IMG/VR virus record: IMGVR_UViG_3300030106_005388
Span: 1 to 26,911 of that record
DNA length: 26,911 bases
From: a virus
Reading direction: 5' to 3' (one strand)
Position 1 is the first letter of the stretch, and every line of letters starts with the position of its first letter. The position numbers and the translations under genes were made by a program. Shown here piece after piece: positions 1,254-22,909 of the stretch. The notes below the pieces were generated by a model, which was not told where the DNA came from, ran no database searches, and saw only the letters and a program-made list of their open reading frames with translations.

Positions 1254-2420
1254 ATGGCAGGATTAAATTATGACAATTTATCAGCCCTTACAAAGGATAA
1301 GTTTTTACCTATTCTCGTGGATAATATTTTCAACTCTAATGCATTATTGCTAAAACTATTATCAAATGCAGAAAAGTTAGATGGTGGTAAGAAAATTATT
1401 ATGCCAGTAGAGTATGGTAAAAATACATCTCAAGGGTTTATAGATTATAACTCAAGTACAGCAACATCAATTGCTGATTCAGATATTATTAGTGCATCTG
1501 AATGGCAATGGACAACAGCATATTCTGGAATTTATTTCAGAGGTGATGAAGAACATAAAAATATGGGCGATTCACAAGTGCTATCATTATTGAAATCAAA
1601 AATGAGAAATGCTGAAAAATCTTTAAAAGATTTGTTTGGCACATCTATTTTTGGTGCCCCTCAAGCAGATGGTGCTGAAGATCATGGATTAACATCGCTT
1701 AATGGTTTAGGTACTATTGATGGTTCAACTGATAAAACTGGCTATGATGCTGGTGCATTAGGTGAAACTGGTCATGGTGCAGGTATCATTGAAACAGTTG
1801 ATGCTACAACTTGGCATGCATTGGGTGCTGATGATAATGGTATTGTTGGATACAGAAGAAAGTTAGGTAACATTGATACTTATCCTTCTTCATCTGATGA
1901 TAACAAATGGTGGAACTCACCAATAGCATCTTTTTCAACATTACTTGCAGGTGGTGCTAATAATGTTGCATGTACATTCACAGAAATGACTGATACAACT
2001 AATGGTGTTGCAGATATGGTCAAAAAGATGACTGAAGTGTATGGTGCATTGACAATAGACAATGACCAACCAGATCTTATAGTAACAACACAAGTTATCT
2101 TTGATGCTTATGAAAGTTCTTTACAAGCAAACAAAAGATGGGCTGGTGATGCTACTTTGGCTGATGCAGGGTTCCAAACATTGAAATTCAAAGGTGCTAC
2201 TGTTGTAGTTGACTCACATTGTCCAGCCGGACAAATGTATATGTTAAATACAAAGTATCTTGATTTCAAAGTTCACAACAAAAGAAACTTTGCTTTTGAA
2301 TCATTTAGAAGACAAGAAGGGCATGATGTAATGCAGGCTCGTATCTTCTGGATGGGACAATTAACTTGTTCTAATGCAAGAATGCAAGGCTGTATTGTTG
2401 GTGGACCTACAAGTCACTAA
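1254..2420 (+). CDS. Major capsid protein (HK97-fold type, inferred)
   Basis: This 388-residue protein forms the icosahedral shell. The start has AGGAG at 1243-1247, six bases upstream. The N-terminal pattern (LTKDKFLPILVDNIFNSNAL, then about residues 44-53 DGGKKIIMPVEYG) is one I recognise from major capsid proteins of many uncultured podovirus-like phages, where a helix leads into a 'DGGxxIxxPLEY' strand. The C-terminal part has the expected strand-rich pattern (VVVDSHCPAGQMYMLNTKYL), which in capsid proteins lies in the A-domain, and then a segment on binding to neighbouring subunits. Small loops rich in Gly, Asp and Thr occupy the middle. Its place between the scaffold and a hairpin-containing gap fits a highly expressed gene. 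No leader peptide or cleavage site is evident. The fold itself is inferred from family resemblance. Confidence 0.85.
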   Translation: MAGLNYDNLSALTKDKFLPILVDNIFNSNALLLKLLSNAEKLDGGKKIIMPVEYGKNTSQGFIDYNSSTATSIADSDIISASEWQWTTAYSGIYFRGDEEHKNMGDSQVLSLLKSKMRNAEKSLKDLFGTSIFGAPQADGAEDHGLTSLNGLGTIDGSTDKTGYDAGALGETGHGAGIIETVDATTWHALGADDNGIVGYRRKLGNIDTYPSSSDDNKWWNSPIASFSTLLAGGANNVACTFTEMTDTTNGVADMVKKMTEVYGALTIDNDQPDLIVTTQVIFDAYESSLQANKRWAGDATLADAGFQTLKFKGATVVVDSHCPAGQMYMLNTKYLDFKVHNKRNFAFESFRRQEGHDVMQARIFWMGQLTCSNARMQGCIVGGPTSH

Positions 2421-2450
2421 TAGTTGAGTTAAGTTAAATAATAGGTTTAT

Positions 2451-2482
2451 GGGGGTCTTCTACCAAAGACGATGAGGACCCC
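2451..2482 (+). promoter_or_regulatory. Hairpin with two exclusive pairings after the capsid gene
   Basis: In the 79-base gap after the capsid gene, GGGGTC (2452-2457) can pair perfectly with GACCCC (2477-2482). An inner pairing of GTCTT (2455-2459) with AAGAC (2466-2470) competes for the same GTC bases. There is no T-tract after it, so it is not a standard terminator. It could be an mRNA-stabilising or processing hairpin at the 3' end of the capsid message, or a translational control element for the gene at 2500. It is the only GC-rich stem seen in the structural region. Confidence 0.4.
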
Positions 2483-2499
2483 TGTAATGCAAGGGCAAA

Positions 2500-3294
2500 A
2501 TGGCAAAAAATAAATTTTCGATAACAAAAGCACTACAAGATGTAAAAACAAAAAAAACTTATTTGAGTTTCAATACTGAAAAACAGGTTTTTGAAGGTTC
2601 TGCATTAGTAAGAGGTGATGATTATGATCCTGGTGATGGGAATTATCCTCAATTAAGGATTTCTATATTACCTTCAACTGTTAAAGCATATCTCGATTTA
2701 ACACCAGAATTGCTTTCTAATACAGAATATAGGTGGTTTGATATTACATGGGACCCAAGAGATGAATATGTATTAGATACATCAGTTGGACTTGCAGTAA
2801 TATGTGGTGTGTATGATGAAGATGGAACTATTGGAGGTGGGCAAACTTTTTCCGATTTTGTTGATTTATCTCCCCCTTCAACAGTATTAACCCCTTTGGC
2901 AGATATAATACAACCAGATGGTTCTAATGGATTTACTTTAGAATTTCAACCAAAATATGTTGCATGGATGCAAAAATTTAAACCAAAGGTTATGAAATCA
3001 TTAAAAGAGGATATGTCTGCACCAGAATTAGCAGGATATTCTACACATTTTAGTTTAAAGACTAAACCAACAACATGGTATGCAGTTGATGTTGCTGGTG
3101 GAGATTTTATTAAAACTTTAGGAGATACCCCATTCGGAAGGGCAACTATCGAGTGGGATGAAACAGATGTATATTGGGATGAGATTCATTCTATAAAAAC
3201 AAGTTTAGTTGATATAGATGAACATGACTCAACAACAATACCTACAGGGACAGAAGTGTTTTATTCAATTGATTATCAAGCAGTATTATTTTAA
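2500..3294 (+). CDS. Unknown head-associated protein
   Basis: This 264-residue protein is not one I recognise. It is strand-rich with many Asp, Gly, Thr and aromatic residues, and has no signal peptide, membrane segment or coiled coil. The start has AAGGG at about 2491-2495, close to the ATG. Segments such as ISILPSTVKAYLDLTPELL and TPFGRATIEWDETDVYWDEI suggest compact beta domains. It lies directly after the capsid gene and before two other beta-rich proteins and an adaptor, the slot that often holds head-decoration proteins or head fibres. A structural role is likely on position, but the exact one cannot be stated. Confidence 0.6.
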   Translation: MAKNKFSITKALQDVKTKKTYLSFNTEKQVFEGSALVRGDDYDPGDGNYPQLRISILPSTVKAYLDLTPELLSNTEYRWFDITWDPRDEYVLDTSVGLAVICGVYDEDGTIGGGQTFSDFVDLSPPSTVLTPLADIIQPDGSNGFTLEFQPKYVAWMQKFKPKVMKSLKEDMSAPELAGYSTHFSLKTKPTTWYAVDVAGGDFIKTLGDTPFGRATIEWDETDVYWDEIHSIKTSLVDIDEHDSTTIPTGTEVFYSIDYQAVLF

Positions 3295-3305
3295 GGAGAA
3301 ATTAA

Positions 3306-4763
3306 ATGGCAACTTTCACAACGAAGAAAATTTCAGAAACAGTAGCATGTATTTTACATGGAGATGATGGTAGTAGCAATGTAAGAGGACTTACTAATGC
3401 ATCCACAAATGTCGAATTAAGAACAAGTAATAATGGGGTTTCTACTATCAATATAACAACAGATAAAGTTTCTTTAAATCAAAGTTGTGTTGTCGCTGGA
3501 GGTCTTTGGAACAGGTCTTCTGGACAAGATTTAGATGTTAGATCATCATCAACAGCAGGTGCTGGTGGAACTATTTTTGCTGGAGAGGTTACTGTTTGGC
3601 AAGGTTCTTCTACTGCTTGGGGAACACAATCGCAAGGTGGAAAGGTTAATTTTAAAGATGGTTCTTCTGCACCAGACTCTGGAACAAGTGATGATTCTTT
3701 TTTTATAGACAACTATCATAGTGGTGAAGGGTTTGCTTTAAGATGTACAAGAAGAGAAAGTGGTGGTGCAGGTGCAGGAACAGATGAGGATACAAGATTA
3801 TTTACAGCAACAGCGAAAAACGGACAAGCATACTTTACTGTTGGAACTGTAGCAAGTTTAGAGCAATTTACATGTGAAGGAAAATTATCAACTGCAGGCA
3901 CAAGTTTAGGACCAAGGATTAATGAAATATATGTTAATTCAAGGACAAGTAATTTTGGAACTTTATTAGCAGGTGATGATGATAATCCAGGAACAAAACT
4001 ACAACCATACAAAACATTAAGTAAGGCTATTGTAAATTGTTGCCCTTATAGTATTAATATTATTTATTTGTATGCTGGGACTAATGCAAGTAGTGAAAAA
4101 ACAACATATAATATTTGCACATTAACTTTAAAAGGATTGAATATTCATATCAGACCTTGTCATAGCGATACCCCAGGAAGCAAAGAGGTGGGAGACCCTG
4201 TAGCAACAGATGAAGGAACAACTGCTCTTGAATTATATAGAGATGCAACAATTGTACAGCAATCTATATCTAATGAATTAGAGGTGGGTGGTGCTGATGC
4301 TGATTCTGCTCAATGGGATTTATGGAATGGAACAGCAGTATCAATGTCTGGGTTCCATATTAAATTAACATATCCAGGTGCAAGTGGTTATCCGTTATCA
4401 AAATTACCATTTAGAATGGTTTTTAATGGGGGAGGTTTACTTTCTTTAGGAGAACAAAATTCTACAGACTGTCAATCAACAAAAGTTGATTATGTTAGTT
4501 ACAATGGAAGCCAAGCAAATACAGCAATATTAACAAGTGAATATTCGTATGGACATCTTATCACTAAAAATGTTAAGTATGCATCTACTGCTGGAGATAA
4601 AACAAAACAAGCATTGTTAAGTGGTCCAGGCACATTAAATGTTCAACAAACTGGGCAATATTATCCAGACAACGGATTATATAGTGGTTGGTCTGGGTCA
4701 GAGTACGACCAATATGATTATATAGAAAGTGCTGGAACAGTAGGAACAAATTATACACCTTAA
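3306..4763 (+). CDS. Beta-helix-type head fibre or tail spike protein
   Basis: This 485-residue protein begins after TAAGGAG, in which the preceding stop codon is part of the ribosome site. The first 200 residues are Gly/Ser/Thr-rich and repetitive, as in fibre shafts. At about residues 206-260 there is the pattern NEIYVNSRTSNFGTLLAGDD, then GTKLQPYKTLSKAI and IIYLYAG. This matches the start of right-handed beta-helix (pectate-lyase/DUF1565-like) domains: 'VnxxtGxD..GTxxxPykTLskAi...iyl..G'. Such domains are common in receptor-binding spikes and in head fibres. The C-terminal half stays strand-rich and ends in Tyr/Gly/Asp-rich sequence. Its place between the capsid and adaptor genes slightly favours a head-decoration fibre over a tail spike. 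No catalytic residues can be assigned. Confidence 0.6.
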   Translation: MATFTTKKISETVACILHGDDGSSNVRGLTNASTNVELRTSNNGVSTINITTDKVSLNQSCVVAGGLWNRSSGQDLDVRSSSTAGAGGTIFAGEVTVWQGSSTAWGTQSQGGKVNFKDGSSAPDSGTSDDSFFIDNYHSGEGFALRCTRRESGGAGAGTDEDTRLFTATAKNGQAYFTVGTVASLEQFTCEGKLSTAGTSLGPRINEIYVNSRTSNFGTLLAGDDDNPGTKLQPYKTLSKAIVNCCPYSINIIYLYAGTNASSEKTTYNICTLTLKGLNIHIRPCHSDTPGSKEVGDPVATDEGTTALELYRDATIVQQSISNELEVGGADADSAQWDLWNGTAVSMSGFHIKLTYPGASGYPLSKLPFRMVFNGGGLLSLGEQNSTDCQSTKVDYVSYNGSQANTAILTSEYSYGHLITKNVKYASTAGDKTKQALLSGPGTLNVQQTGQYYPDNGLYSGWSGSEYDQYDYIESAGTVGTNYTP

Positions 4764-5478: not shown

Positions 5479-6138
5479 ATGACAGCAGTAGAAATGTTAG
5501 ATTTGTTGGGATTGAGGTTAGAAGACCCCGAAGGCAAAGCATTTTCAGAGAATGCAAAATTAAAAGCATTAAATGTTGCACAGATGACAATAGTAAACTT
5601 GTGCGAAAATTCATTACTAACAGAATTAGAAACATCAACAGATGTTACTCTTGATGCCTCTGGAACATATGATTTAAGTTTATTGGACCCACTTGCTATA
5701 AGGAATGGTGTATATGCTGTTAAAAATAAAAACACAGATATAAATGCATTTATTAATCTTATTGAATTTAAAGATGTTAAAAGGCTTGAAAATAGTTATT
5801 TAGGTTCATCTAATACAAACCCCGTAGGCTATGTGTTTAAAAATACATTATATTCAGAACCAGCAAATGCAGATGCAGTTACTATTTATTATTTAGGAAA
5901 ACCAGATGACATGGGTCCTTCTACAGCAAGTACATTAGATGAGTCTTTACATGAAATCTTGGTTGATCTTGCAGAATCTCAATTATGGAAGATGGATGGA
6001 CAATATGAAAGAGCAACTGTGGCACAAACAAATGCAATGAATATCCTTAATGCTTTAAATGGTAGAGTTATTTCAGAAAAGCCTCAAGGTGTAGGGACAT
6101 ATGGGAGAGTAGCATCGGCAAATCCTAAAGGAGTTTAA
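5479..6138 (+). CDS. Head-tail adaptor (connector) protein, podovirus type
   Basis: This 219-residue protein has the layout of podovirus head-tail adaptors, which sit under the portal. An N-terminal helix pair (VEMLDLLGLRLEDPEGKAFS, then a helix with AQMTIVNL) is followed by a small beta region opening 'LDASGTYDLSLLDP', where the ligand-like loop of adaptors lies. The C-terminal helix pair is DESLHEILVDLAESQLWKMD, then a Gln/Asn/Ala helix. This order is typical of the P22 gp4/T7 gp11-like class. The ribosome site TAAGGAG overlaps the preceding stop. It lies just upstream of the nozzle-type tail protein, the normal gene order. There is no sign of damage. Confidence 0.7.
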   Translation: MTAVEMLDLLGLRLEDPEGKAFSENAKLKALNVAQMTIVNLCENSLLTELETSTDVTLDASGTYDLSLLDPLAIRNGVYAVKNKNTDINAFINLIEFKDVKRLENSYLGSSNTNPVGYVFKNTLYSEPANADAVTIYYLGKPDDMGPSTASTLDESLHEILVDLAESQLWKMDGQYERATVAQTNAMNILNALNGRVISEKPQGVGTYGRVASANPKGV

Positions 6139-6141
6139 TTA

Positions 6142-9100
6142 ATGCCAAAGCAGAAAAAATTTAAAGGCATTCCTTTAAGTGGTGGTTTGCTTACAAATGC
6201 TGATATAGAAGAAGTAGATGCACAGTTTTCTACAGACCTTATTAATATATCTTTAGACAAACCTGGAACCCTTACTATTAGGGAAGGGATAGGCGATCAT
6301 CATACTATCCTTGAAAATATTAAAACATTATATAGATGGAAAGATAAAGTCCAAACAATTGGAAATGAAATTGGTCCAGTTTGGATTGCAATTCAAAAAA
6401 CAGCAGTAGGGGAAAGAAAAATAAAATTATCTTACAGCGATTATCCTTCTGGATGGGAAAATATAGGGACAATAGGCTCATTTGATTTAGAGCCTAAAAT
6501 ACTTGATTTAGGTGGCTCTTTAAGGATTTTATTTGGACATCAAAACAGACCAATCTTTATAGATAAAATTGATAGAGTTTTTTTTGGCAATAATGCTGAT
6601 GGTGAACCAAGATATGTATTTAATGGAATACATGTTGATGATTTAAATCTTCCACATTCAAATATTTTAACAACAAGTGTGTCAGCAGTTGCAGGGGGTA
6701 ATTTAGATGATGGATATAGTGGTGAAACTATGTATTACTATTACAAAATATCTCCAGTTTATGATGGGTATCAAATAGGATCATTACCAGATCAGTTTCC
6801 ACATAAATGTGCTGTTCCACACAATGCAACAGATAAAACAGCATCGATTGCATCTCTTATAGAATTATCATCCTGGAATCCAAGAATAACACATTTAAAT
6901 TTATATAGAGCATCTTCTGCTAATATTGATTCAGCAGAAAATAGAACATATTATTTAATTAAAAGTATCTCTACATCAGACACATCTGAATTTTTAGATG
7001 AAACATTAGACTATACAAATATGTGTAGAAGAGTTTTCTCTAACGGAATAGCATCTATAGGTGCTGAAACCTTTGACGATGGTACTGCTTTATCTACTTA
7101 TGATGGTAGTGTCCCAGTAGGCGATGATGTAGCAAATATGTTTGATTATGCTTTTTTAGTAACTGGAATGCTATCTGTAACAGATGGAACAAATTTAGGG
7201 ACAGACACAGATTTTTCAAAAAGCAATGTTTCAGCAACAACTATGTGTTGGTGTGTTCCTTATTCTCATATGGCAAGAATGCAACATTATCCAACATCAG
7301 ATCAAAATGGCTACCAAACAATGAGGTTAATGATAAAACATCCTGTATATATGGAAGATGGAAGTGCAGATGATGATTTTGAATTAGCACATGGTGGATT
7401 TCAGTTTATAAGGAGAATAAATAAAATAGGTTCAGACCACATTGAAGTAGATGTCCCTTTTGTAGAAGACCCTTCTCCACAATCAGATGATTGGATGGGA
7501 CATGATACTACCTATGCATCCAATTTAGATAATTTTGACAAACTAAAGGCTCCAGAAACTCAATCAAATTTACATTATGCAAACTATGGTTGGTCTGCTG
7601 GGTCATCTCCCCAATATTGTAATGCTGTAGTAAAAAATAGAAATATTTTAAAATGGGGTAAAGACCCTTGTACTGGTGCGAGGTTGGAAACTCCAGTATG
7701 GACATTAGTTAATGAAGGGGATGGAAATCAAGATGGCTATGGTGGTGAAGATGGTGAAAATGCTTTTATGGATATAGACACATTGCCCTATAATATGACT
7801 GCAACTAATGGAACAACAACCGAAGACCAAACATTTTCATATATAGGAGTTGGTAGGAGTGGTGACCCAGAAAATGGTGCATCTCCTCCTAATGATTCTT
7901 GGAAAAGAATATTTTGGTATCAAGAAATAAAGAATGATGGATTGCAAAATGGACAATGGTATTGGATTACAGCATCATTTATGTTTGCAGAGTCAACTGG
8001 AAGAGGAACATCTGGACCTAATATGGGGTGCTATATATCGAGAGACAACCACGATGTTGAAGCCTCTGGAGACCCAACTGCTGATTATTTATTTAGGATG
8101 GGACAACCAGCGATAATCAATCAAACTAATGCTGGAACATATGACAATCCTTGGCTTGGTATGGGTATGTCTGGTGGTGAAAGTAATTTTGGACAATATT
8201 TTCCAAATAACAAAGGTTATCAGATGGGAGCCTGGTATTATCATTCAGACACAGACTCTACTGATGGTGATCCACATTATTTTTGCATAGGTGTTGGTTT
8301 GCATGATGATAGTGGGTTAGAATGGTCAAATGGTGGGTCGGTTAGGGATGGTTCTGATGTGTTTGCTTTTGGAAATATGGGGATATTTGAATGTTTAGGA
8401 CCTCCTTCTGGAACTGCATACTTTGGTCCAAATGTTGTTAGTGTCCCAACAGCAAAAGGATTAGAACCAGGTAGCAATTTAAGTTTTCCAGCGATGCCAG
8501 GTGATACATTTTATGTTCAAAATAGTGTACCTCTTCCTACTGATGAAATATGCCAATTAAGTGGCAATACACCAATAGAGTCTTCTGGTATAAACTTATT
8601 ATCATCTTTGGGAATTGTAGATAATGGAGATGAAACTATCACAATAACTATTAAAGATATGGGTGGAATGGATATGGAGCCACATCCATCACACGAAACA
8701 AGTTTAGATGTTAAATACAAACATGCTAAAATGATAAGTGGAAGACTATTTGTTGCAAATGTATTTATGTCAAATACAGAAAAATCAGAACAGCATCCTA
8801 ATTGGATTATGTTTTCAGAATTTCAAAAACCAGATATAATACCTATAACAAACTATATAGGGATTTCAGATTTAGGGGATGGAGAAATAACTAATTTAGA
8901 GGAGATGGGAGGCTCTTTAGTTGTATTTTCTGCAAATTCTATATATCGTTTACATGTACCATCTAATGATCCTATGGCTTGGAGTTTGATGGAGGCAGTA
9001 GAAACTATAGGATGTAGTGCCGATGATGGAATTATTAACATTCAAGGCAAATTATATTTTTGTGCGAGAGATAACATATACATGATGGATGCTAATTTTA

Positions 9101-9822
9101 CACCACAGCCTATATCTCAATATATACAAGGTACATATTTAGAAAATTATACTGATCTTGTTAAATTGAGACATGAGCCAATAAAGAACCAATTATATGT
9201 TATATTCCAAAATAAAGAGTGTTATGCTATTAATTGCAATAGACTACCCAATGAACAAATATGGCAAAGAATATGCTTTGGAGATGAATTTTCAGATGAA
9301 AACAATTTAAATGATTTAGTCATAGATGAGAATTTAAAATCTTTTGTTGTTTTTGATAATAAAATATCAACTTTATTAGGTGCATCAACTGTAGAAGAAA
9401 AACAAAAATTATTAAAGGCTACTGGTTGGATGAAATTAGCACCACAAGATTCTAATGTTATTTTAAGAAAATTACATGTTAGATATAAAAGTAATGTTCC
9501 AATAGAATTTTTAATCCATACTGAAGGGCAGTCGGAATCCGACACACTTTCTCAAAAGCACAAACCAAGCACCTATGATTCAGATGCAACGAATATAAAA
9601 GCAACAATTGATACAGGAAATATTATAGAAATTCCTTCTAATTGTAACCCAGATGGAGTTATATTAGAATCAGAATCTGGGGTCAAATCTTCGCTAAATA
9701 GCACGACAAGATTAGGGATTCGATGTTCTTCATTTAAATTAATATTACGAACAAAAAACACATCAGACCCCAATAATAAAACATTCTGTGAGATTTATAA
9801 TGTAGAGGTAGAATATGAGTAG
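6142..9822 (+). CDS. Tail nozzle/stabilisation protein with large internal insertion
   Basis: This 1226-residue protein is about twice the length usual for its class. The ribosome site AAGGAG is at 6128-6133. The N-terminus (FKGIPLSGGLLTNADIEEVD, then DKPGTLTIREGIG) is the hallmark opening of podovirus stabilisation/nozzle proteins, which have a P22 gp10-like beta-propeller hub. The propeller pattern runs to about residue 300 (ITHLNLYRASS, TYYLIKSIS, FLDET). It resumes at about 855 with the characteristic WIMFSEFQKPDIIPITNY, MGGSLVVFSANSIYRLHV and IGCSADDGIINIQGKLYF blades. Between them, residues about 303-853 (roughly 7050-8700) do not fit the propeller and look like one or more inserted beta-sandwich domains. 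WYQEIKNDGLQNGQWYWITA suggests a carbohydrate-binding fold. The likely role is closing the tail tube, and the insertion may add receptor binding. The last eight bases overlap the next gene. Confidence 0.7.
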   Translation: MPKQKKFKGIPLSGGLLTNADIEEVDAQFSTDLINISLDKPGTLTIREGIGDHHTILENIKTLYRWKDKVQTIGNEIGPVWIAIQKTAVGERKIKLSYSDYPSGWENIGTIGSFDLEPKILDLGGSLRILFGHQNRPIFIDKIDRVFFGNNADGEPRYVFNGIHVDDLNLPHSNILTTSVSAVAGGNLDDGYSGETMYYYYKISPVYDGYQIGSLPDQFPHKCAVPHNATDKTASIASLIELSSWNPRITHLNLYRASSANIDSAENRTYYLIKSISTSDTSEFLDETLDYTNMCRRVFSNGIASIGAETFDDGTALSTYDGSVPVGDDVANMFDYAFLVTGMLSVTDGTNLGTDTDFSKSNVSATTMCWCVPYSHMARMQHYPTSDQNGYQTMRLMIKHPVYMEDGSADDDFELAHGGFQFIRRINKIGSDHIEVDVPFVEDPSPQSDDWMGHDTTYASNLDNFDKLKAPETQSNLHYANYGWSAGSSPQYCNAVVKNRNILKWGKDPCTGARLETPVWTLVNEGDGNQDGYGGEDGENAFMDIDTLPYNMTATNGTTTEDQTFSYIGVGRSGDPENGASPPNDSWKRIFWYQEIKNDGLQNGQWYWITASFMFAESTGRGTSGPNMGCYISRDNHDVEASGDPTADYLFRMGQPAIINQTNAGTYDNPWLGMGMSGGESNFGQYFPNNKGYQMGAWYYHSDTDSTDGDPHYFCIGVGLHDDSGLEWSNGGSVRDGSDVFAFGNMGIFECLGPPSGTAYFGPNVVSVPTAKGLEPGSNLSFPAMPGDTFYVQNSVPLPTDEICQLSGNTPIESSGINLLSSLGIVDNGDETITITIKDMGGMDMEPHPSHETSLDVKYKHAKMISGRLFVANVFMSNTEKSEQHPNWIMFSEFQKPDIIPITNYIGISDLGDGEITNLEEMGGSLVVFSANSIYRLHVPSNDPMAWSLMEAVETIGCSADDGIINIQGKLYFCARDNIYMMDANFTPQPISQYIQGTYLENYTDLVKLRHEPIKNQLYVIFQNKECYAINCNRLPNEQIWQRICFGDEFSDENNLNDLVIDENLKSFVVFDNKISTLLGASTVEEKQKLLKATGWMKLAPQDSNVILRKLHVRYKSNVPIEFLIHTEGQSESDTLSQKHKPSTYDSDATNIKATIDTGNIIEIPSNCNPDGVILESESGVKSSLNSTTRLGIRCSSFKLILRTKNTSDPNNKTFCEIYNVEVEYE

Positions 9823-10003: not shown

Positions 10004-11032
10004 ATGTATTATAAATCATGGAAAAAATTAACAGATAAAGTTTATATGCTTGGTAGTTTAAATGAGAAAGAAAAACCAAGAACATTTGTTACAGAACTTT
10101 TAAGAGAGGCAGAAAAAGAATTTGTAAGAACTGGCATATCAGAGGGTGTTTATTTTGCTACCCCAACTGAATCAAGTCCACGAGGGGGGACAGATACAAG
10201 CGAAATCCAACTACCTTCTCATATAGGTCTAATAAAATCAGTACAAGTTAATGGAGAGGTTCTTCCAAGGTTCAATTCTGGAGAAATTCATTTAAATGCT
10301 AATAATGAACCAGATGTGGGTCCTCCAACTGCATGGAATATGTTAGGCGAGGATATTTTAATATTTGACCAAAAACTAACATCTTCTGATAGTGTGGCAG
10401 TATTTTATGAGAGTTCATTTCCACAAGAAGATTTAATTATAAAAGCATTTATGATGGTATATACAAATACCTCAACAACACCTACAGTTTATGTGGAACC
10501 AGTAGCAGATTTGGAATTTAAAACATTTTGGGATGCCAATAGTTTAAGGTGTTACTGTGAAGATGATGATGGGAGTGTTGTTACTAAAATATCTGCAACA
10601 AGTGTGTGGAATACCACTCTTAAAAGTTCAGAAGTCCCAAACCATGTAGGTGCAATAAATGTTGAGACTGGGACAGCAAGAATTGAACAGCCATCTTTTA
10701 GCAATAGTTGGAAGACATTTGGACACAGAGGAGGATACCAATCATTGACTTTAGTGGGAGATGGTGCCGCTGGATCAACAGTTTTAAGAAATGCAAGTCA
10801 TTTAAGTTTGACAAATTATAATACAAGTTACGGACCTACTATAAGGAAAGAGCATCAAGATTATTTACCTTATTATGCATTAGGGTTATTGCTACAACCA
10901 GTAAACCCAAATATGGCTGATTATTATTTAAGTAAATGGACAGAATATTTATTAAATGTAAAAGATAGGTACCAAGATAACGATTTAAAAGGACAAATAG
11001 AAACAACAGTTAGAAGCACTTGGAGGTATTAG
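10004..11032 (+). CDS. Second adaptor-like tail protein with internal insertion
   Basis: This 342-residue protein has AAGGGG as its ribosome site, overlapping the preceding stop. The first 145 residues have an adaptor-like order: an N-terminal helix with EKEKPRTFVTELLREAEKEF, then a beta region (LPSHIGLIKSVQVNGEVLP, GEDILIFDQKLTSSDSVAVF). The C-terminus (HQDYLPYYALGLLLQPVNPN, then an amphipathic helix with ADYYLSKWTEYL and an R-rich end) is the standard two-helix close of phage adaptors. About residues 150-275 between them is an extra strand-rich, Cys-containing segment (VYVEPVADLEFKTFWDANSL region). It is therefore probably a T7 gp11-like tubular or second connector protein with an insertion. 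The resemblance is weaker than for the adaptor at 5479. Confidence 0.55.
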   Translation: MYYKSWKKLTDKVYMLGSLNEKEKPRTFVTELLREAEKEFVRTGISEGVYFATPTESSPRGGTDTSEIQLPSHIGLIKSVQVNGEVLPRFNSGEIHLNANNEPDVGPPTAWNMLGEDILIFDQKLTSSDSVAVFYESSFPQEDLIIKAFMMVYTNTSTTPTVYVEPVADLEFKTFWDANSLRCYCEDDDGSVVTKISATSVWNTTLKSSEVPNHVGAINVETGTARIEQPSFSNSWKTFGHRGGYQSLTLVGDGAAGSTVLRNASHLSLTNYNTSYGPTIRKEHQDYLPYYALGLLLQPVNPNMADYYLSKWTEYLLNVKDRYQDNDLKGQIETTVRSTWRY

Positions 11033-11536: not shown

Positions 11537-12805
11537 TTGGCAACATTTGACGAAATAAGACAGCGAATCTCAAAGCCAATGAAAGGCTATGTTGATAAAA
11601 TGCTTAAAGAGAACCAAAACTTTCTAAACAAAGGAAAGAATTTTGTTAATCCATCATCGTCTAATGTAAGTACATCTCCTTATAAAACACCTAAAAGGAA
11701 AATTCCTAAAAGAGTAGGACCTGTTGTCAACGATTATTTAGGAGAATCAAGTCCTTGGATAGAAGATAAAAAGGATAGGGAATATGTTAGTCCTTATATG
11801 GAAAGATTTAAAGATACAGATTGGCAACCCAAAAAAGTTGAGAAAGAATTACCAGAAGAAACTGGTTATGGAGTTGATTATGGAATGGGTACAGACCTTC
11901 CTTTTACAGAGCAAGTGGTTGATTATACTGGAAAAAAAATAGTATTAGCATCAGCAACTACAAAAGGATTACAAGAACAAAAGTTGAAATTTTTAAACGA
12001 AGATAGAAAGTTTAAAAATAAAGCAATAAAAGAAGAAAGAGAAAGATTAGAGGAAGAGACATTTGAGGCAAATGTTGAAACTTACATGAAGGTAAATAAA
12101 TGGAGTAAAGATAGGGCTGTTGAAGTTGCTGGATATTCTAAAAAATCTTACCACGAATTATTACAGTTGCAAACAAAATATCTTAAATATTTCAAAAAAG
12201 ATGATGATGAGAATTACAAATATTCCGATGAAACAAGAAATATTTTTGAAAAAAAATTAGATGATCTTCAAGGGTTTATTGATTCTGCTGAAGACAAAGA
12301 AGAGGAAAATTACTTAACTCCTAATGTTAAGATGGACAGCACTCCTGATTTCAAACAAGTCGACAATCAAATTCCTGGATTAACACCTGGTGGTGCAAAA
12401 GTAGAGAGAGTTCCTTATTTAGAAGAAGACCCTAAAAATTACTTTACAAGTCAAGGCGGCAGTTATATTACATATAAAGGTGCTTGGTATTCTAAAGATA
12501 GTTGGGAAAAAAAGAAAAGAGAATTAGAGACATCCTATAATGAGACGTCTTTAAAACACAAAATGTTATATGAGGAAAATTTCGCAGATAGACCAGGCGA
12601 AGCAAAATTTGTAAGTGGGGTGTATGATGGCGAATATTATGTTTTTCCAACAGTATTTAAAAGAGAGGGAGAAGATGTTTTTATTGAACTCTCAAAAGAC
12701 GAGGCATTCAATGAAGCCTTAATAAGAGGTGAGGCTATCCCATTTGATTCTGAATGGGAGGCTAATTTGTTTTCAAGAGGAAGTTGGAGGAAATACGATG
12801 AGTAA
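11537..12805 (+). CDS. Charged internal virion protein with C-terminal virion domain; TTG start
   Basis: This 422-residue protein most likely starts at TTG 11537 (LATFDEIRQRISK...), four bases after the previous stop. The first in-frame ATG is at 11582, would remove 15 residues of a good helical N-terminus and has no ribosome site. The only candidate site for the TTG is AAAGG, about 13 bases away, so coupled translation is likely. Residues 1-120 are Pro/Lys-rich, and residues about 150-250 form a strongly charged coiled coil. The C-terminus (about 361-422) includes GVYDGEYYVFPTVFKREGED and then ALIRGEAIPFDSEWEANLFS. I recognise this 'yyvfPTvf...deAf..Al..GeaipFdsexEA..Fs' pattern from phage internal virion and polyvalent proteins. 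No enzyme activity is assigned. It overlaps the giant gene by eight bases (ATGAGTAA). Confidence 0.6.
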   Translation: MATFDEIRQRISKPMKGYVDKMLKENQNFLNKGKNFVNPSSSNVSTSPYKTPKRKIPKRVGPVVNDYLGESSPWIEDKKDREYVSPYMERFKDTDWQPKKVEKELPEETGYGVDYGMGTDLPFTEQVVDYTGKKIVLASATTKGLQEQKLKFLNEDRKFKNKAIKEERERLEEETFEANVETYMKVNKWSKDRAVEVAGYSKKSYHELLQLQTKYLKYFKKDDDENYKYSDETRNIFEKKLDDLQGFIDSAEDKEEENYLTPNVKMDSTPDFKQVDNQIPGLTPGGAKVERVPYLEEDPKNYFTSQGGSYITYKGAWYSKDSWEKKKRELETSYNETSLKHKMLYEENFADRPGEAKFVSGVYDGEYYVFPTVFKREGEDVFIELSKDEAFNEALIRGEAIPFDSEWEANLFSRGSWRKYDE

Positions 12806-15800
12806 AGATGCCTATGTAAATGATTGGAATTATTTATACAATCCAGACAATGATTGGGATGATTTTGACGAAACTATGTCATTGAATATTGTAGAATCAG
12901 AGGATCATCCTATTTTTACAGACTTTACAGATGAAGACAAAGTAGATGAGCAGAGAAAATTAGCAAGAGCAAGAAGGTATTGGTATAATTTAACAGCAAA
13001 CCCAGATAACGAATACCACAAAACGGAAAGACTTGGAAAAGGTATATACGAACCAGAAAAAAGCGATGAAACAGAATCATTATATAATGGAAAAGAAGCA
13101 CCTAAAATCAACTTTAAAAACTCTAATAATATTAATTGGTTATTGGACAATAATATATCATCAACTAATTTTTCGCCTACTGAACTACATTATAAAAAAA
13201 GTAATCCAAATGCAAAATTATTAAATGGCTATAAATTTCCAAGTGACCCTTTTAAATTGAATTACAAAAGTATATCGCCTTTTATTAAAAACAATTTTAA
13301 TGACTTGTTACTTGAGTATAAAGATGCTGTAAAAAGTAAAACATTACCATCATTTGACTCATCTATTGCTTTTCATAATAGATATACTATAGCAAAAAAC
13401 ATATCTAAAGACCCAGAAACTAAAGATTCTGTAGACCCTTTTACTAATGATGTTATATATAATCTTGTAGATAGGCTTAATTCTGTGGATGATGGTTTTG
13501 AAATAAAGCCTACTTACACAGATTCTGCGAGTGTCTATAAAGACATAAAAGACAAGTACGAAATGAAAGGATCAAATTTACTAAATCCTGTAGATGGGTA
13601 TACAGTTGCATACAACCCAAATCCAGAGAGGTTTGTTCATTCAGGGACAGGACACAGGAGTGGAAAATATAAAATATTAAATGAGTATGAAGCAGTATTC
13701 ACACAAAAAGAACATGATGAGATTGTAAAATCACTAACAGCCAACCTCGACCCAAATGCTCCGGCTCACGAACAAGAAATTTTATTAGATAAATACAATA
13801 CATTATATTCTCAAGGATTTAGATTAATGGATGAAAAAGGTCAAGTTCTTGACCCTATGATGCCTAATGGGTTGCTATATGGTGAACCAGATAAAACATC
13901 TGATCCGGAATTACACGAAATATGGTCTGAATACTCACAACAAAAAGATGCAACAGATGTTTTTAGTGATTTTTGGGAAGACCCTATGAAATTTTTACCA
14001 TTTGTTCACGATGTTCCTGAATACTCTGAAATAATAAAAGTAACATCTTTGGCTCAACAATTAAGCCAAGGAGCAGAATTAAACGATGAGGAAATGTTAT
14101 ACTTGTCAGACTATATAAGAAAAACTGCTTGGTCTTCAGACCAAACTCAAGATGCAGATATTGCAGAAGGTATTTTGAATTTAATACCATATATGTTAGA
14201 ATTTGCTACTGTTTGGGGATTGAGTAAATCAATCGTTGGAATACCCGCTGCCTCATCTCTTGCAACTAAAAAATTACTAACAGATCAAGCAAAGAAAAAA
14301 TTAAAATCTCTTTTTAATAAATCTGCAATGAAAAAAATCAACAAATGGTTGGCTGGAGTTGGTCAAAAGAAAATAACAAAAAATGTAACTTTTGGGAAAG
14401 CAGTTGAAGAAGCAGGTAAAGGGTTGTTAGCATCAAGTCTTTTTACAGATATTGTACATGTTCGTACTGAAGATCATAAAGGTGAGACTAAATGGGTCAA
14501 CAGAGCAGACAAAAATGCGGCAAGATTAATGTTACCAGGATTGGATATAGACCAAAGAACCCACGATATAGTTGTGCAATCATCAAGTATAGATGAAACA
14601 ACAGCACATAAAATGGGAAGATTTCAAGGTCATCTTGAATTTTTATCAGAGAATTTAGGTGCTATGTTTTTTAAACCAATGTTCAAAATGTTTAAAACAT
14701 CTAATGCTCATTACATACAGAAAAAAACTATGTTAGATGCAATAATGAAAAAAAATCCTATAGAAAAATGGACAAAAGCGGGATTAAGTGAAAATGCATA
14801 TTATAAAGCATTACATAATTTATTTAAAGGTGGTGGGTATGATGGTATAATTGAAGAGTATTTAGAGGAAAGGTCAAACCAAGCGGGTTTAGCGATAGCA
14901 CATAGTTTAGGCGAAAATGGTTGGCTTGACCCTAAATGGGCAGAAGCGGGATGGGAATGGAAAACACCCACCTCAAGAGAATTTTTTACAGAGTTAGCAA
15001 TATTAGCATTTCCAGCGGGAGTTACTGCAAGTATTGGTACTGCTAATGAATTTTATAAAGATAGAAGATTTATGAGTACAACTGTCGGCAAGAAAATAAA
15101 GGCGGCACAAAAACTAAACGACAAAGAATTAAATAGTCTTTTAGATCAGTATGAACAGCAAGAATATATCCCTTCAGAGGAAGGAGTAGAGACAGATGAA
15201 AAAGCAGAAAAAGAAGAAAAAACAGACATAGAAAAAGCAGAGGAAGAAATAAGAAGCAAAGTTCAACAACAAAGAACATTGCAGTTTACAGAACAATTCA
15301 TCAAACAAAACCCACACTACTTTGATAGTATGGGTCTTCTCGATATAATTAATCGTGCTGGAAGCATTACTGTTGAAGATATGTTAAAAAATGGTGTAGA
15401 TGGCAAACCTATGACAATGGATGAAATTAAAGAGTTTTGGGAGGGAGAAGGTTTACCAATCGATACTGAAGAGGCTGACATTTTTGGTTCTACTCAATGG
15501 CAAAAATTTGGAGACATGATGAGAGTTGTCGTTAAACTTTATTCTGGAGCAAACACAAGCACAGTATTAGAGGAAATGATGGGATTTTCATATAAAAACT
15601 TATCAAGAGAAGAAAAATTGCTATACAGAAACTATTGGTTGTCTGTAGATACCAAATTAACAGAGCAAGAGTTTTTTGAAAACCAAGCAATGCAGTTTTT
15701 TTTAAATGAAAACTTACATCAATACAATGGTGTTACAGGGCAAGTAAAACAAATTTATCATAAATATAAAAATAGATTTTCTAAAATGCTGGGTTTACAC

Positions 15801-18800
15801 GAAGATAATTTAGATGCAAGATTAAGAGAGATGTATACTGATGCTGGGTTATTAAGAAGAACAGATATAAAGGATACAAAAACTCCAATAGACAGAGGTT
15901 TTGTTTTTAATGAAAAAGGGAAATTGGTTAAATCAAAAGACACTCCTTACAGCCTTGATAAGTTTAATAAGAAATTACCTAAATCGAGAGAAGATTTTGA
16001 TATTGAAAAAATTACAAATGAAAGATCATATCAATTAGGGTATCAAGGGTCGCACAGACCAGGTGACGATGGACCATCTGCCGATGATTTACTTTCTATA
16101 GATTTTGCTCCAAAAGATGTATATGAATCTCCACAACATTATATAGGGTCAACACCAGATGATTACAATGAATTTGATCCGGACACTCCTAAAGGTGCAG
16201 TATATAATGAAACATTAGAATTTATGCAAAAAATTAGAAATTTAAGAGGAAACCCAAATGAAGAAATTAGCATATATAGATCAAGTCCTGTAAAACAATT
16301 AAATAAAGGGGATTGGGTAACACCATCTTATTCTTATGCAAAACAACATGGATTTCATCCAACAGATGATTCTCTTGATATGCCCGTACATGAATATAAA
16401 GTAAAACTAAAAGATATTAAGTGGGATGGTAATAGTTTGGAAGAGTGGGGATATTTCGGTAAAGACATAATAGTAGAAACATTTGATAGTGAAATGAATT
16501 ATGATTTAAAACGTGGCACAGATATAAGTTTTGATTTGAAAAAAAGAAAACAAGCATTTGTGGACAAATCGTACAATGTAGTTAAAGAAAAACTTGGTAA
16601 AAGAATAGAAACAGATAAATTGTACAATTTTTTAAGAAACCAAGGCATCAAACAAAAAGAAATTGATGTGTTGAATATAGAAGACTTTATTGATTGGCAT
16701 AAAGAGAATGAAGAAAAATTTATAAATAAAAATGATTTGTTAAATCACCTTGTTTTAAATAATAGTAAAGTGGTTGTTAGGGAGATTGGAGATGATTTGT
16801 CATACCTAAATTTAGGATATGCAGACTTTGTGGGACAAGGAGAAACTCCTTATCAGAGAGTTGATGAGGATTACTTTAAAGAAGTATTTGACAGATTGAA
16901 TCAGCAAGGAGGTGTGTTTGGATGGCAAAGAGTCTATCTTTTTAGAAAAGAAGATTTTTCTGACAAACTACTTGATGATTCCTCTGTTTTCCCATTAGAG
17001 CATATTGAAGAAGAAATAAAAACTTTAAAAGAAAATGCTATGGTAATTAATCCAGAAGATGTATTTACTATACCAATTTGGGTAACAAATGAAGATAGTG
17101 AAACAGAGATTAACGAAAGTCTAAATAGACAACTGCAAAAAATGTCGCCCAAACCAAGATGGGCAAATATAAAAATGAAGGGAGATGTTTTATCTTACCA
17201 CGAAGCGATTGTCCAATTACCAAATTTAACAGAGATTGAATCTAATAAAAGATACGAAGATCATTGGGATTCAAGTTTTAACACCAAGTCATTTGGGCAT
17301 GTAAGATATACTATAAGAACAATAGATGGAAAATTAGTTTTATTTGTTGAAGAAATGCAATCAGACTACGAGCAAAGAGTGGGTGCAAACAACAACCAAC
17401 TAAAAAAAGCAAGAGATGCACAAATCAGACTTGGCTTAACTACCTCTTCAAGGGAGATACCAAATACTCCATTCAAAAATTTCAGTTGGGTGAACTTGCT
17501 ATTAAAAGTTGCTTTAAGGAAGGGTGCAGAACATGGTGTCGATAGAATAGCATTTACAAATGCAAAAGAACAGAAAAAGGCAAATAATTTATTTAAGACT
17601 ATTGAAAATATAACATACTCTCCACCAACTCAACAATGGACAGAAGAAATATATAATCCGGAAAATTACACGATTCAAGCAAGGGGAGATATAGTTGGTG
17701 AATATGCTCAAGAAAATTTTGTAATATCTGGTTGGTCCATTATACCAAAACCAATTTTAAGAGATAGATTTAATATCCAAACAGGGCATGTGGATTCAAA
17801 ACACTTTACAGAAAAAATAGATGAAAGTAGCACATCTACTATAAGATTTGAAAATGAACCACCTGAACACGAAATATTTGATATGTTTCTACAAGACTCC
17901 TTATTTGACCAATTAGAAGAAAATGATAGTAGATACTACATAGAAGCAGATGTTAATGGAAACAATAGGAAGATGTATGTAACTGATGCAAAATTAAATT
18001 TAACAGTAGGCAAAAATATTGCTGATGCAATGAGGAAAAGACAAGGCGACTTGAATATTCTATTTGACAATTATTTGAAAAGTGTCGTTCCTATGGATGC
18101 AATTAATGAACCAGATTTGCATTATTCGGAGAGAAATTTTAAATGGGCAAAAACTTTTGGAACACCTAATTTAACTCCTTCTATTACTGGAAAATACAAT
18201 CAAGAAAATAAACAAAAGTTTGTTCTACACCCTATGATTCATCGAGCATTGGGAAACAACATAACAAGTCTTGATTTATTTAATAAACCTTTAGTTAGAG
18301 AAAATGATACATTAATGCAGTATTTAAAAATACAGAAAAGACATCCAGCATCTAATATATTTAGCATAATAATAAAAAGCGAATTAAGTGAAACTGATTT
18401 TAAAAATCAAGTTTTAAATAATAATGGTGATGTTGTTAAAACTCTAACAAGTCAAGGAGTTTACAACAACCCTGTAGAGGTGGGTCTTTTCGTAAGAGAT
18501 ATGTCAGATGGAACATTTCTGCCAATTGTTGAACATCGTGCAGGTTCTTTAGGAAAGGGTATTTCTCTTATTTTTGCCGATTTAAAAACAAAAGAAGGTG
18601 AGGATACACTTGAAGTACAATCAGACAGAACACTAAAGGCAATAAATAATCTTCTTACAGATAGTGCCAAAGAATTTCAAAATTCTCAAGATACCCCAAC
18701 AGATGCTCCTGGTTGGATGAAAACATATACTTTAGATAAAACACATGTTGGAGAACAAGGTGCTTTTTATGATCTTATATATAATGTGAATACAAGTAAG

Positions 18801-21800
18801 TTTATAAATAAAAACAAATTATTGAAAGGAACAAATAGAAGATTTGGTAGACTTAAAGTAGGTCCAGAAAAGGCTACTCAATATTCTATGCAAGACATTT
18901 ACAATTTTGTTGATTCAGGACAAATGCATATTTCTATACCAACTCCAGCGATGATAATAAAGAAAATGATATTTGACCATTTTGGATTGCATAGAGCCGA
19001 GAACCCCTCAAAGATAGAAGATATTTTTAGTAAAAGAGAATTATATGATTTTAATGGTTCTAATAGAGCATCAGATAATAAGGCTTGGCTTTTTGAATAT
19101 TATCAAAATCATATATTAGAAAAAAACCCAAAGTTAAAAGACCAATACCCTGAATTAGATTCTTTAGGCATAATAGAAATATTAGCAGGAAATCCTATTT
19201 CAGATAAATCGAGTCTATTGGATTTAGCAACTGCGGCTACAAGTAATGAAAAAGACCATGGTTTTGATTTTAATGATTTTTTTATTAGAAATATAAATAT
19301 AGAATATAAGCATTTTAGTTCACCAATAGAAGTTGATGGTGTATATGAAATTGGATATTTTTCTCCTATTTTAACAATTAGACAAAACACATTAACTCGT
19401 CAAATTCAAGATAAATTATCTTCTAAATATGGGATGGAACCATCACCAGATATTCATGGATATATGTCTTATGAGATACCTCTTTCTATTTATACATCAA
19501 CAGCGATTGATTCACAGGCTGTTTTTGAATTAGAAAGTAGGCTGACAGGAGAATGGGAAGGATTTGCAGAGATCGATAAAAGTGAGGAAGGTGTTTTACA
19601 AAGAGAAAGATTGATGCTTGATTTAAATAAAGAGGCGACTGAAAGATTATTAACAGAATCACAGCCATCGTTTCAATTAGTGAGAAAGAAAGATTCAATA
19701 TTAAACAACGAAAGTATGAACATAAAAGACTCTACACTTTGGCAATGGATGCTGTATCATGTGCAAGACGATATGATTCGATTGAGAAAAATTGAAGAAA
19801 ATATAGGAGATCTTCCAGAAGACTTACAGGCTTATATGAAGCACGAGTTATATATTGGAAAAACCAAAGAAAAGATTATTGAGCAAGAAGAAATATTGAA
19901 TGAGTTTGAAGAAAGATTACTTGGAGATGATATTGGTATAAGTGAATTTGGTGAATATTTATATTTTCTACATGCAAAAGAAAGAGACAAATTTATTAAA
20001 AACAAATACAAAAAAGATGTAGAAAAACTAAAAGATAAAGTCAACAATGCAAAAACTCAATCTGCTAAAACAAAACATAAAAATAAGTTAGATCAGTTGA
20101 TTAAAAGAATTACAAATGGTTCTGGAAAGTCTACAAAAGAACAGAAAGAATATTGGGAGTGGTTTAATTCAAGACCATATAGAGTTAATTTATATAAAAA
20201 ATATGCAGAGGAATTTCAAGACAAAATTATAGCCAAGAAATTAGATATGCTATATGACAATGGCTTAATAAATGAAAAGAAATACAAAGAATTGAAAAAA
20301 CAATTTAAAAACTTTGTTCCTTTAAAAGGGTTTGAAGAAACTCCAGATGGGTTTATAGAAACAGTTAAAGATATTTCAAGAAGAGTTACTGGTAAATATA
20401 ATGTTCCAGGTGCAGGTATAATTGGAGCAAAGGGTAGAAACTCATCTGCATTAAACCCATATGTACAAGCAAAGGCAGACTTGTTATTTTCTATACAGTT
20501 AGCAGAAAAGAACGAGGTTTTGAAAGCCTTACACGATTTAATTTTAGAACACCCTGATAAAAATATTTGGGAGGTTAGTGGTAAACGTTACATTCCTAAA
20601 TATGACAAAGAGGGGGAGTTTTCTTTAATGCCATCAAATGATGACTTGTTGCCAAACCAAGTTGCATTAATGGTAGATGGAAAAGTTAAGATAATAACCT
20701 TACACGACAAAATGTTAAGAAGAGCCTTCAAGGAAAGCAAAGTACCCCCAACTCCTTTAGTTCATTTATTGAAAAATATGGCATCTGGATTTGGTTCTTA
20801 CTTTAGAGCAATTAATACATCCTTGTCTCCAGTTTTTGTTGTTACTAACTTTTTAAGAGATGCTCAATTGGCGGGAATAAGAATTGCTCCACATCTATCA
20901 AAAAAGCATATTAAGAACATATATAAAAATGTATTTAGTGCAATTAGAGGAATATATAGAGAGGAGAGAGGCAAAGACCCTAAAAACGAATGGGGTAAAT
21001 TTTATAGAGACTTTAAATTAGATGGCGGCAAAGTTGGTTGGATGGATCAAACAACAGTTGAAGAAATGATGGAAGATGTAAAAAAGAAGGTTAAAAGATT
21101 AGAAGAAAACAACAATATGAAAGAGGCTTTTTATCATATTGCTGACTTTATAGAAAGTATGAATATGGCTGTTGAACAAGGAGTTAGACTTGCAACATAC
21201 AGAGAGTTAATAGAGGCTGGAAATTCAAGAGAAAAATCTGCTCAAATGGCAAAGAACCTAACAGTCAACTTTAATAAAAGAGGTGCAAGTACAGGAATGT
21301 TTAACAAGTTGTTTGTTTTTGCAAATGCAAACATACAAGGTACTTATAATTATTTAGGTTCAGTCATAGGTCCTAATTCAAATTCAACATCTAAAAAACT
21401 ATTTTGGGGTTCTGTTGGATTTTCATTCCTTCTTAATTTTATGAATAGGATGTTAACAGAGGGAGGTGAGGCTGAAGATGATTGGGATTTAGTAGATGAT
21501 TGGAGGAAGGACAACAGATTAACATTTTCGGTTCCAGGAACAAATAAAAATTATGGTCTTCCTATAGGATATGGAATAAATGTTCCTTTTGCATTAGGTT
21601 CTGTTTTAGAAAACCATATAGCATCTTATGGTTGGTATCAAAACTTGTTTGGTTTAAAAGAGGGTTCTGGAATAACATTCGGAAAGGGGATAAGCAGATT
21701 ATTCCAAGCAACAGTTAGTGGCTTTTTACCAGTTAGTGGACCAAATGTTTCTCAAGCATTAATGCCTACATTTTTAAAACCTTATGTACAATGGGAGCAA

Positions 21801-22471: not shown

Positions 22472-22909
22472 ATGGAAAAAGAGTTAAGAGATATAGCAAA
22501 GAAAGTGTGTAAGCATTTAGGAATGTATAGCAAAGATGCAGTTGATTTAATAATAGCAACTGGTAAAGCAGAGTCGGGTTTTAGAGCATTGAAGCAAAAG
22601 GGTGGTCCAGCGATAGGATTCTTCCAAATAGAGCCAGATACTATAAATGATGTAATGGACAACTATGCTCATTACAGACCTCATATAATGCAAGATTTAT
22701 TAGATCTTGGTTTAAAACAAGGTGAAGAAGAGTTTTGTGTCTTAACGAACATTGCTTTACAAATAGCATTTTGCAGACTTTGTTATAGGAGAGTTCCAAA
22801 GCCTATTCCAAACAATCTTGAAGATATGGCTAAATATTGGAAAAAATATTATAATACAGAAAAAGGAAAAGGTACAGTTGAACACTTTTTAAAAGCAAAT
22901 AAGGGGTAA
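22472..22909 (+). CDS. Endolysin, transglycosylase/lysozyme-like
   Basis: This 145-residue protein has the SLT/lysozyme-like hallmark IATGKAESGFRALKQKGGPA, followed by GFFQIEPDT. The likely catalytic residue is Glu34 in 'GKAESGF', and the 'GFFQIEP' loop is the second conserved block. The C-terminal motif RRVPKPIPNNLEDMAKYWKK, with 'YNTEKGKGT', is common in phage transglycosylase-type endolysins. There is no signal peptide, so release needs a holin or other membrane protein. Translation begins two bases after the giant gene's stop with no good ribosome site nearby (a weak GGAG is about 15 bases upstream), which suggests coupling. It cuts peptidoglycan at lysis, although a virion-associated role cannot be ruled out given its position after the ejection protein. 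Confidence 0.75.
   Translation: MEKELRDIAKKVCKHLGMYSKDAVDLIIATGKAESGFRALKQKGGPAIGFFQIEPDTINDVMDNYAHYRPHIMQDLLDLGLKQGEEEFCVLTNIALQIAFCRLCYRRVPKPIPNNLEDMAKYWKKYYNTEKGKGTVEHFLKANKG

Follow-up and report, generated by a model that had tools for sequence, protein, structure and literature searches.

A variable insertion with a putative CBM-like jelly-roll in the predicted tail-nozzle protein of an uncultured podovirus

The 1226-aa protein encoded at positions 6142–9822 is identified from its predicted structure, profile evidence and synteny together as a podoviral tail-nozzle protein, and the long insertion that interrupts its propeller core is most likely a CBM-like module for surface binding that can be swapped between phages, set in a nozzle of known type; it would bind glycans and may take part in receptor contact. 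The window, which is the whole stretch of DNA analysed here, comprises positions 1–26,911 of a virus record of 39,000 bases, which may itself be incomplete. In the ORF reading of the window, the nozzle gene is a single unbroken frame. The adaptor gene, the nozzle gene and the parts of the nozzle protein are as follows.

5479–6138, plus strand: adaptor (head-tail connector) protein; its L005 homologue matches a Pfam adaptor family, and homologues occur in most relatives.
6142–9822, plus strand: predicted tail-nozzle (P22 gp10/T7 gp12-type) protein, 1226 aa; ORF, fold match to solved nozzles, profile match (E = 9e-7), directly after the adaptor gene.
6142–6663, plus strand: residues 1–174, N-terminal platform part and putative first propeller blades; confident AF2 strands, with the blades assigned from strand order and the nozzle papers.
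6664–6987, plus strand: residues 175–282, Ig/Fn3-like beta domain, apparently analogous to IG1 of phicrAss001; six consecutive confident AF2 strands.
6988–8601, plus strand: residues 283–820, insertion; low pLDDT, flanked on both sides by confident core, variable length in 35 homologues.
6988–7623, plus strand: residues 283–494, first part of a base lying between the propeller and the jelly-roll and enlarged in this protein; a shorter form in relatives, no confident model.
7624–8409, plus strand: residues 495–756, predicted jelly-roll, a CBM-like module within the insertion; AF2 model, best PDB match CBM4 1gui, CBM_4_9 at the same site in L053.
8410–8601, plus strand: residues 757–820, second part of the base; occupied in most relatives.
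8602–9384, plus strand: residues 821–1081, putative remaining propeller blades, the most conserved part; conservation in relatives, AF2.
9385–9819, plus strand: residues 1082–1226, C-terminal platform-type beta domain, variable; alignment of relatives, AF2, and separate copies in L078 and L085.

The relatives (L numbers) were reached via the capsid protein (phrog_9953), which led to related IMG/VR contigs and to 35 full-length nozzle homologues, a few of them near-identical. Direct searches with the full nozzle protein gave no match in Pfam, PHROGs, the phage collection or a first viral-contig scan, no close relative was present in the phage collection searched, and searches of genome contigs with the nozzle C-half and the capsid alignment returned no relatives. 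The adaptor gene lies immediately upstream of the nozzle gene, and the adaptor homologue in L005 matches PF24175 (Pfam SU10_adaptor, E = 3e-8). A tail-module gene adjoining that of the adaptor is what is expected of a podoviral tail nozzle, and the order of adaptor, nozzle and internal protein is kept across the relatives.

Downstream of the nozzle gene, internal virion-type proteins are followed by a single 3246-aa ORF (12729–22469), which has a Pfam LPD38 domain close to the C-terminus (E = 2.9e-22). This ORF probably encodes a giant injected virion protein, and long ORFs related to it come after the nozzle module in the relatives. The 342-aa protein at 10004–11032 is adaptor-like in sequence at its C-terminus and, by analogy with crassviruses, could possibly form a second ring; in its place, relatives of the L078 type have another adaptor-like ORF upstream of the nozzle. 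A 145-aa ORF at 22472–22909 matches phrog_3108 (E = 4.7e-30, unknown function) and looks by sequence like a small lysozyme or transglycosylase. In L006, a 697-aa cytosine-C5 methyltransferase-like ORF (2369–4462) holds several repeated TLT/CTL-type segments, and it may resemble phage methyltransferases of the multi-specificity type, in which several target-recognition domains are combined.

The structure of residues 1–1199 was predicted using AlphaFold2 (AF2) with an alignment containing 30 homologues. The prediction was confident at residues of about 4–282 and 821–1130, and pLDDT was mostly below 50 for residues 283–820. The propeller core, consisting of residues of about 4–282 and 821–1199, matches the solved nozzles of phicrAss001, SU10, P22 (gp10) and T7. 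The best Foldseek matches of the core in the PDB are tail nozzles, namely those of cyanophage A4, Carin 1, SU10, P22 gp10, Pa223, VP1, phicrAss001 and T7. The VIA Z scores are 20.2 for phicrAss001 (528 residues), 19.3 for SU10 and 17.8 for P22 gp10, and for the nozzle matches overall they range from 17.4 to 20.2 across about 377–528 residues. Unrelated propellers also reach Z scores of 15–17, but across about 280 residues only. The fold matches fit the nozzle trait of a beta-propeller, presumably seven-bladed, with a platform. The profile of the nozzle family matches phage stabilization proteins (hhalign, 91%, E = 9e-7), and direct comparison of the nozzle with P22 gp10 alone gave no significant match. 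Because the predicted structure, the profile match and the synteny agree, the core is assigned as a tail nozzle.

The initial annotation had placed the two halves of a P22 gp10-like propeller before about residue 303 and after about residue 855. The split nozzle propeller is borne out by AF2, Foldseek and VIA, but its borders are better set at residues 283 and 820, because the AF2 core is confident on both sides and pLDDT is mostly below 50 between them. Set by AF2 confidence in this way, the insertion comprises about 538 residues (6988–8601). The AF2 strand order is compatible with an insertion placed either within blade 3 or at the junction of blades 2 and 3. Residues 175–282, just before it, appear to form an Ig/Fn3-type domain as in phicrAss001, judging from strand order and PMC10172136, and gave no Pfam match. 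The fold of the insertion itself was not resolved by the full-length AF2 prediction.

Among the relatives, residues 1–300 and about 785–1120 are kept, and residues 301–785 are poorly conserved and often gapped. The equivalent of residues 301–785 spans 103–485 residues in the 35 full-length homologues, the window protein being the longest, which refutes an equal length in all homologues. Relatives lacking the large domain were found: the shortest ones, L078 (667 aa) and L085 (678 aa), retain a base of some 180 residues. The insertion of about 550 residues proposed originally is thus real and variable, but its size was overestimated; since about 180 residues separate the propeller halves even in the shortest relatives, the excess over them is about 380 residues. 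No continuous propeller was seen in the structure prediction, where the confident core is split, and one continuous propeller was rejected on this split and the length variation among homologues. The insertion is richer than the core in Gly (11.5 vs 6.7%), Asp (9.1 vs 6.8%) and Trp (2.2 vs 1.2%), as had been noted from the sequence; Asn, which had been included in that description, is not enriched (7.1 vs 7.3%). The combined enrichment of Gly, Asn, Asp and Trp over the core gives a permutation p of 0.0008.

Extra stretches of about 130–300 residues also occur elsewhere in the nozzle, in the N part in L034, L045 and L040 and in the C part in L012 and L016; since they lie at different places, there are several insertion sites. 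The C-terminal domain of the nozzle, with its TGW...RR motif, recurs in L078 (7807–10072) and L085 (13992–15732) in two downstream ORFs, one of which has tandem ADASQFSADSV-type repeats. Both of these phages have shortened nozzles.

A carbohydrate-binding family is recognisable at the insertion site in a relative. In L053, residues 363–486 at the same site match Pfam CBM_4_9 (PF02018) with E = 2.4e-11 and 44.6 bits, against a cut-off of 25.9. Weaker, sub-threshold CBM_4_9 matches were found at this site in L004, L109 and L095, and a match at E ≤ 0.05 occurs in 5 of the 20 jelly-roll segments. When a profile of all 20 jelly-rolls was compared with PDB sequences, CBM proteins (CBM16 and CBM22 types) dominated the 11 matches, with E values of 0.02 or worse. 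For the window protein and its insert, no CBM_4_9 match was obtained in Pfam at E up to 1, and residues 495–756 gave none at E up to 0.05. Neither the jelly-roll profile of the window group nor the L053 module alone gave a significant match in the PDB, and the profile-profile comparison showed no significant link between window-type and CBM-type jelly-rolls.

Residues 495–756 were modelled separately using AF2 with a 20-row alignment that included CBM-bearing relatives. The model has ten strands, in which ten-residue blocks reach a pLDDT of up to 85, with a mean pLDDT of 54 and a pTM of 0.55. The best Foldseek match in the PDB is CBM4 1gui (E = 9.2e-4), obtained with this mean pLDDT of 54; the fold test is not fully independent because the alignment contained the CBM-bearing relatives. 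After 1gui, CBM22 and other CBM4 entries follow, mixed with Eph-receptor domains. In the VIA comparison, a MAM-type domain has a Z score of 8.4, CBM4-2 and CBM22 have 8.0, and Eph-receptor jelly-rolls lie just below (about 7–8). In the viral library, tail fibres and minor tail proteins are among the neighbours of the model, as is a protein with a CBM16 name. Because the fold matches, yet no sequence method links the window module to CBMs, residues 495–756 are predicted, with moderate confidence, to be CBM-like in fold and outside CBM_4_9 membership. The resemblance to carbohydrate-binding sandwich domains proposed in the initial annotation is therefore upheld by the family site (CBM_4_9 in L053) and, at modest model confidence, by the model of the module (CBM4 as best match), but not by the sequence of the module, which has no significant CBM match.

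The insert diverges faster than the rest of the protein. For pairs with 55–70% identity in the C-half, median values are 48% for the N-half and 32% for the insert, whose alignment is uncertain. With the same uncertainty of the insert alignment, L038 and L035 are 92% identical in the C-half and 33% in the insert, and L027 and L045 are 86% and 30% identical, respectively. The presence of the jelly-roll, scored by eye from sequence motifs, implies that, in the tree built from the conserved C-half, the domain was gained or lost about five times, with at least two of these changes forced by well-supported branches; L019 and L092, which have no jelly-roll, stand beside L056 and L095 on this tree. 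Fast divergence with repeated gain and loss is a pattern of host-contact domains and, read from sequences, suggests such a role, short of proof. Drift of a surface domain under loose constraint would also be consistent with the rapid divergence of the insert.

With a probability of roughly 0.55, the protein is the nozzle of an uncultured podovirus in which a base with a CBM-type jelly-roll is inserted into the propeller, so that six copies at the channel end bind the surface during adsorption. In this mechanism, the base domain carrying the large jelly-roll would interrupt the nozzle propeller after an Ig-like domain, and a hexameric nozzle would place six jelly-rolls round the distal mouth of the DNA channel. 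The jelly-rolls may bind surface polysaccharide or another envelope component at adsorption. Such binding would add to or replace that of fibres, and it could couple binding to channel opening. Divergence and exchange between phages would centre on the jelly-roll module, which is how a host-recognition element should behave. A stronger form, in which the nozzle is the main receptor-binding protein of the uncultured podovirus group and exchange of CBM-like modules at one propeller site sets host range without a separate fibre, is considered doubtful.

The jelly-roll could instead be a docking or assembly element that holds a tail fibre, spike or needle and varies with its partner. This arrangement has models in T7 gp12 and SU10 gp17, which bear fibre docks on the nozzle, in T7 with a jelly-roll, according to PMC6702177 and PMC9509320. 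A partner could be the product of the 485-aa ORF between the capsid and adaptor genes (3306–4763), which is beta-helix-like (DUF1565, E = 8e-4, below the cut-off) and possibly a spike or decoration protein, one of the candidate spike genes of the genome. However, L004 and L053 have the jelly-roll without a recognisable homologue of this ORF, and the domain recognisable at the site is CBM_4_9 in L053 and not a fibre dock; docking is considered unlikely. A trade-off between the module and the beta-helix spike gene was also sought across the relatives, where the only detectable homologue of the 485-aa ORF is in L005.

A mainly structural or gating insertion without a ligand, which would lengthen or seal the nozzle as do the nozzle domains of SU10 or the crass domain of phicrAss001, is improbable. 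The phicrAss001 muzzle likewise varies in length through insertions, as described in PMC10172136, but the absence of the whole domain in L078 and L085 and its fast exchange are unexpected for an essential gate, and the L053 insert belongs to a recognised CBM family. Slightly more improbable still is a module that binds free or particle-bound polysaccharide, such as gels, mucus or capsule debris, and keeps the phage near hosts without specific receptor contact. CBM-type domains do not require receptor specificity, and the diversity among the relatives' modules fits different polysaccharides; placement on the nozzle instead of the capsid, however, would favour contact at injection.

The CBM-like surface-binding nozzle module has partial counterparts in known systems. 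The core's best VIA match, the muzzle gp44 of phicrAss001 (7qol, 7qok), likewise has a propeller into which an Ig domain is set, here between the second and third blades, and blade 3 bears a further large insertion; its authors suggest cell-surface contact (PMC10172136). Unlike in the window protein, its inserted bulk is a unique crass fold and not a CBM-type jelly-roll. The nozzle gp17 of SU10 (7z4b, 7z47) goes with the same adaptor family, but it carries four nozzle domains of Ig-like type, which lengthen the tail, and separate long and short fibres bind the receptor (PMC9509320). P22 gp10, or "phage stabilization protein" (8eap, 8u10), shares the propeller core and the adaptor-nozzle gene order; its length of about 470 aa, however, leaves no room for an Ig-like domain, a base and a jelly-roll. 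CBM families 4, 9, 16 and 22 (1gui, 2y64, 2w5f, 2zex) share the predicted jelly-roll fold and, in L053, true CBM_4_9 membership, whereas the window sequence has no significant match to them.

In Streptococcus siphophages, CBM-bearing Dit and Tal proteins have been described, and such CBMs were shown to bind the host (PMC9437275). Sugar-binding modules thus sit on the central hub of the tail, close to where the DNA leaves, as predicted for the window protein, but Dit and Tal are different hub proteins, from siphophages of Gram-positive hosts without a podoviral nozzle. In Vibrio phage OWB, TTPB is the nozzle protein, binds the host receptor and is required for adsorption; the receptor for TTPA/TTPB is a protein, and no CBM-type insertion is reported in the part of PMC7241545 available. 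Domain insertion at this nozzle propeller position (SU10, T7, phicrAss001) and CBMs in the siphophage tail hub are thus already known. A literature search, which covered few subscription journals, found no report of a CBM-type module inside a podoviral nozzle that is variable across a phage group.

If the proposed function is true, host recognition in an uncultured phage group would lie on the channel protein, with surface binding and DNA release combined in one polypeptide. In metagenomic genomes, whose receptor-binding proteins are as a rule difficult to identify, the insertion would also provide a fixed site for reading receptor specificity.
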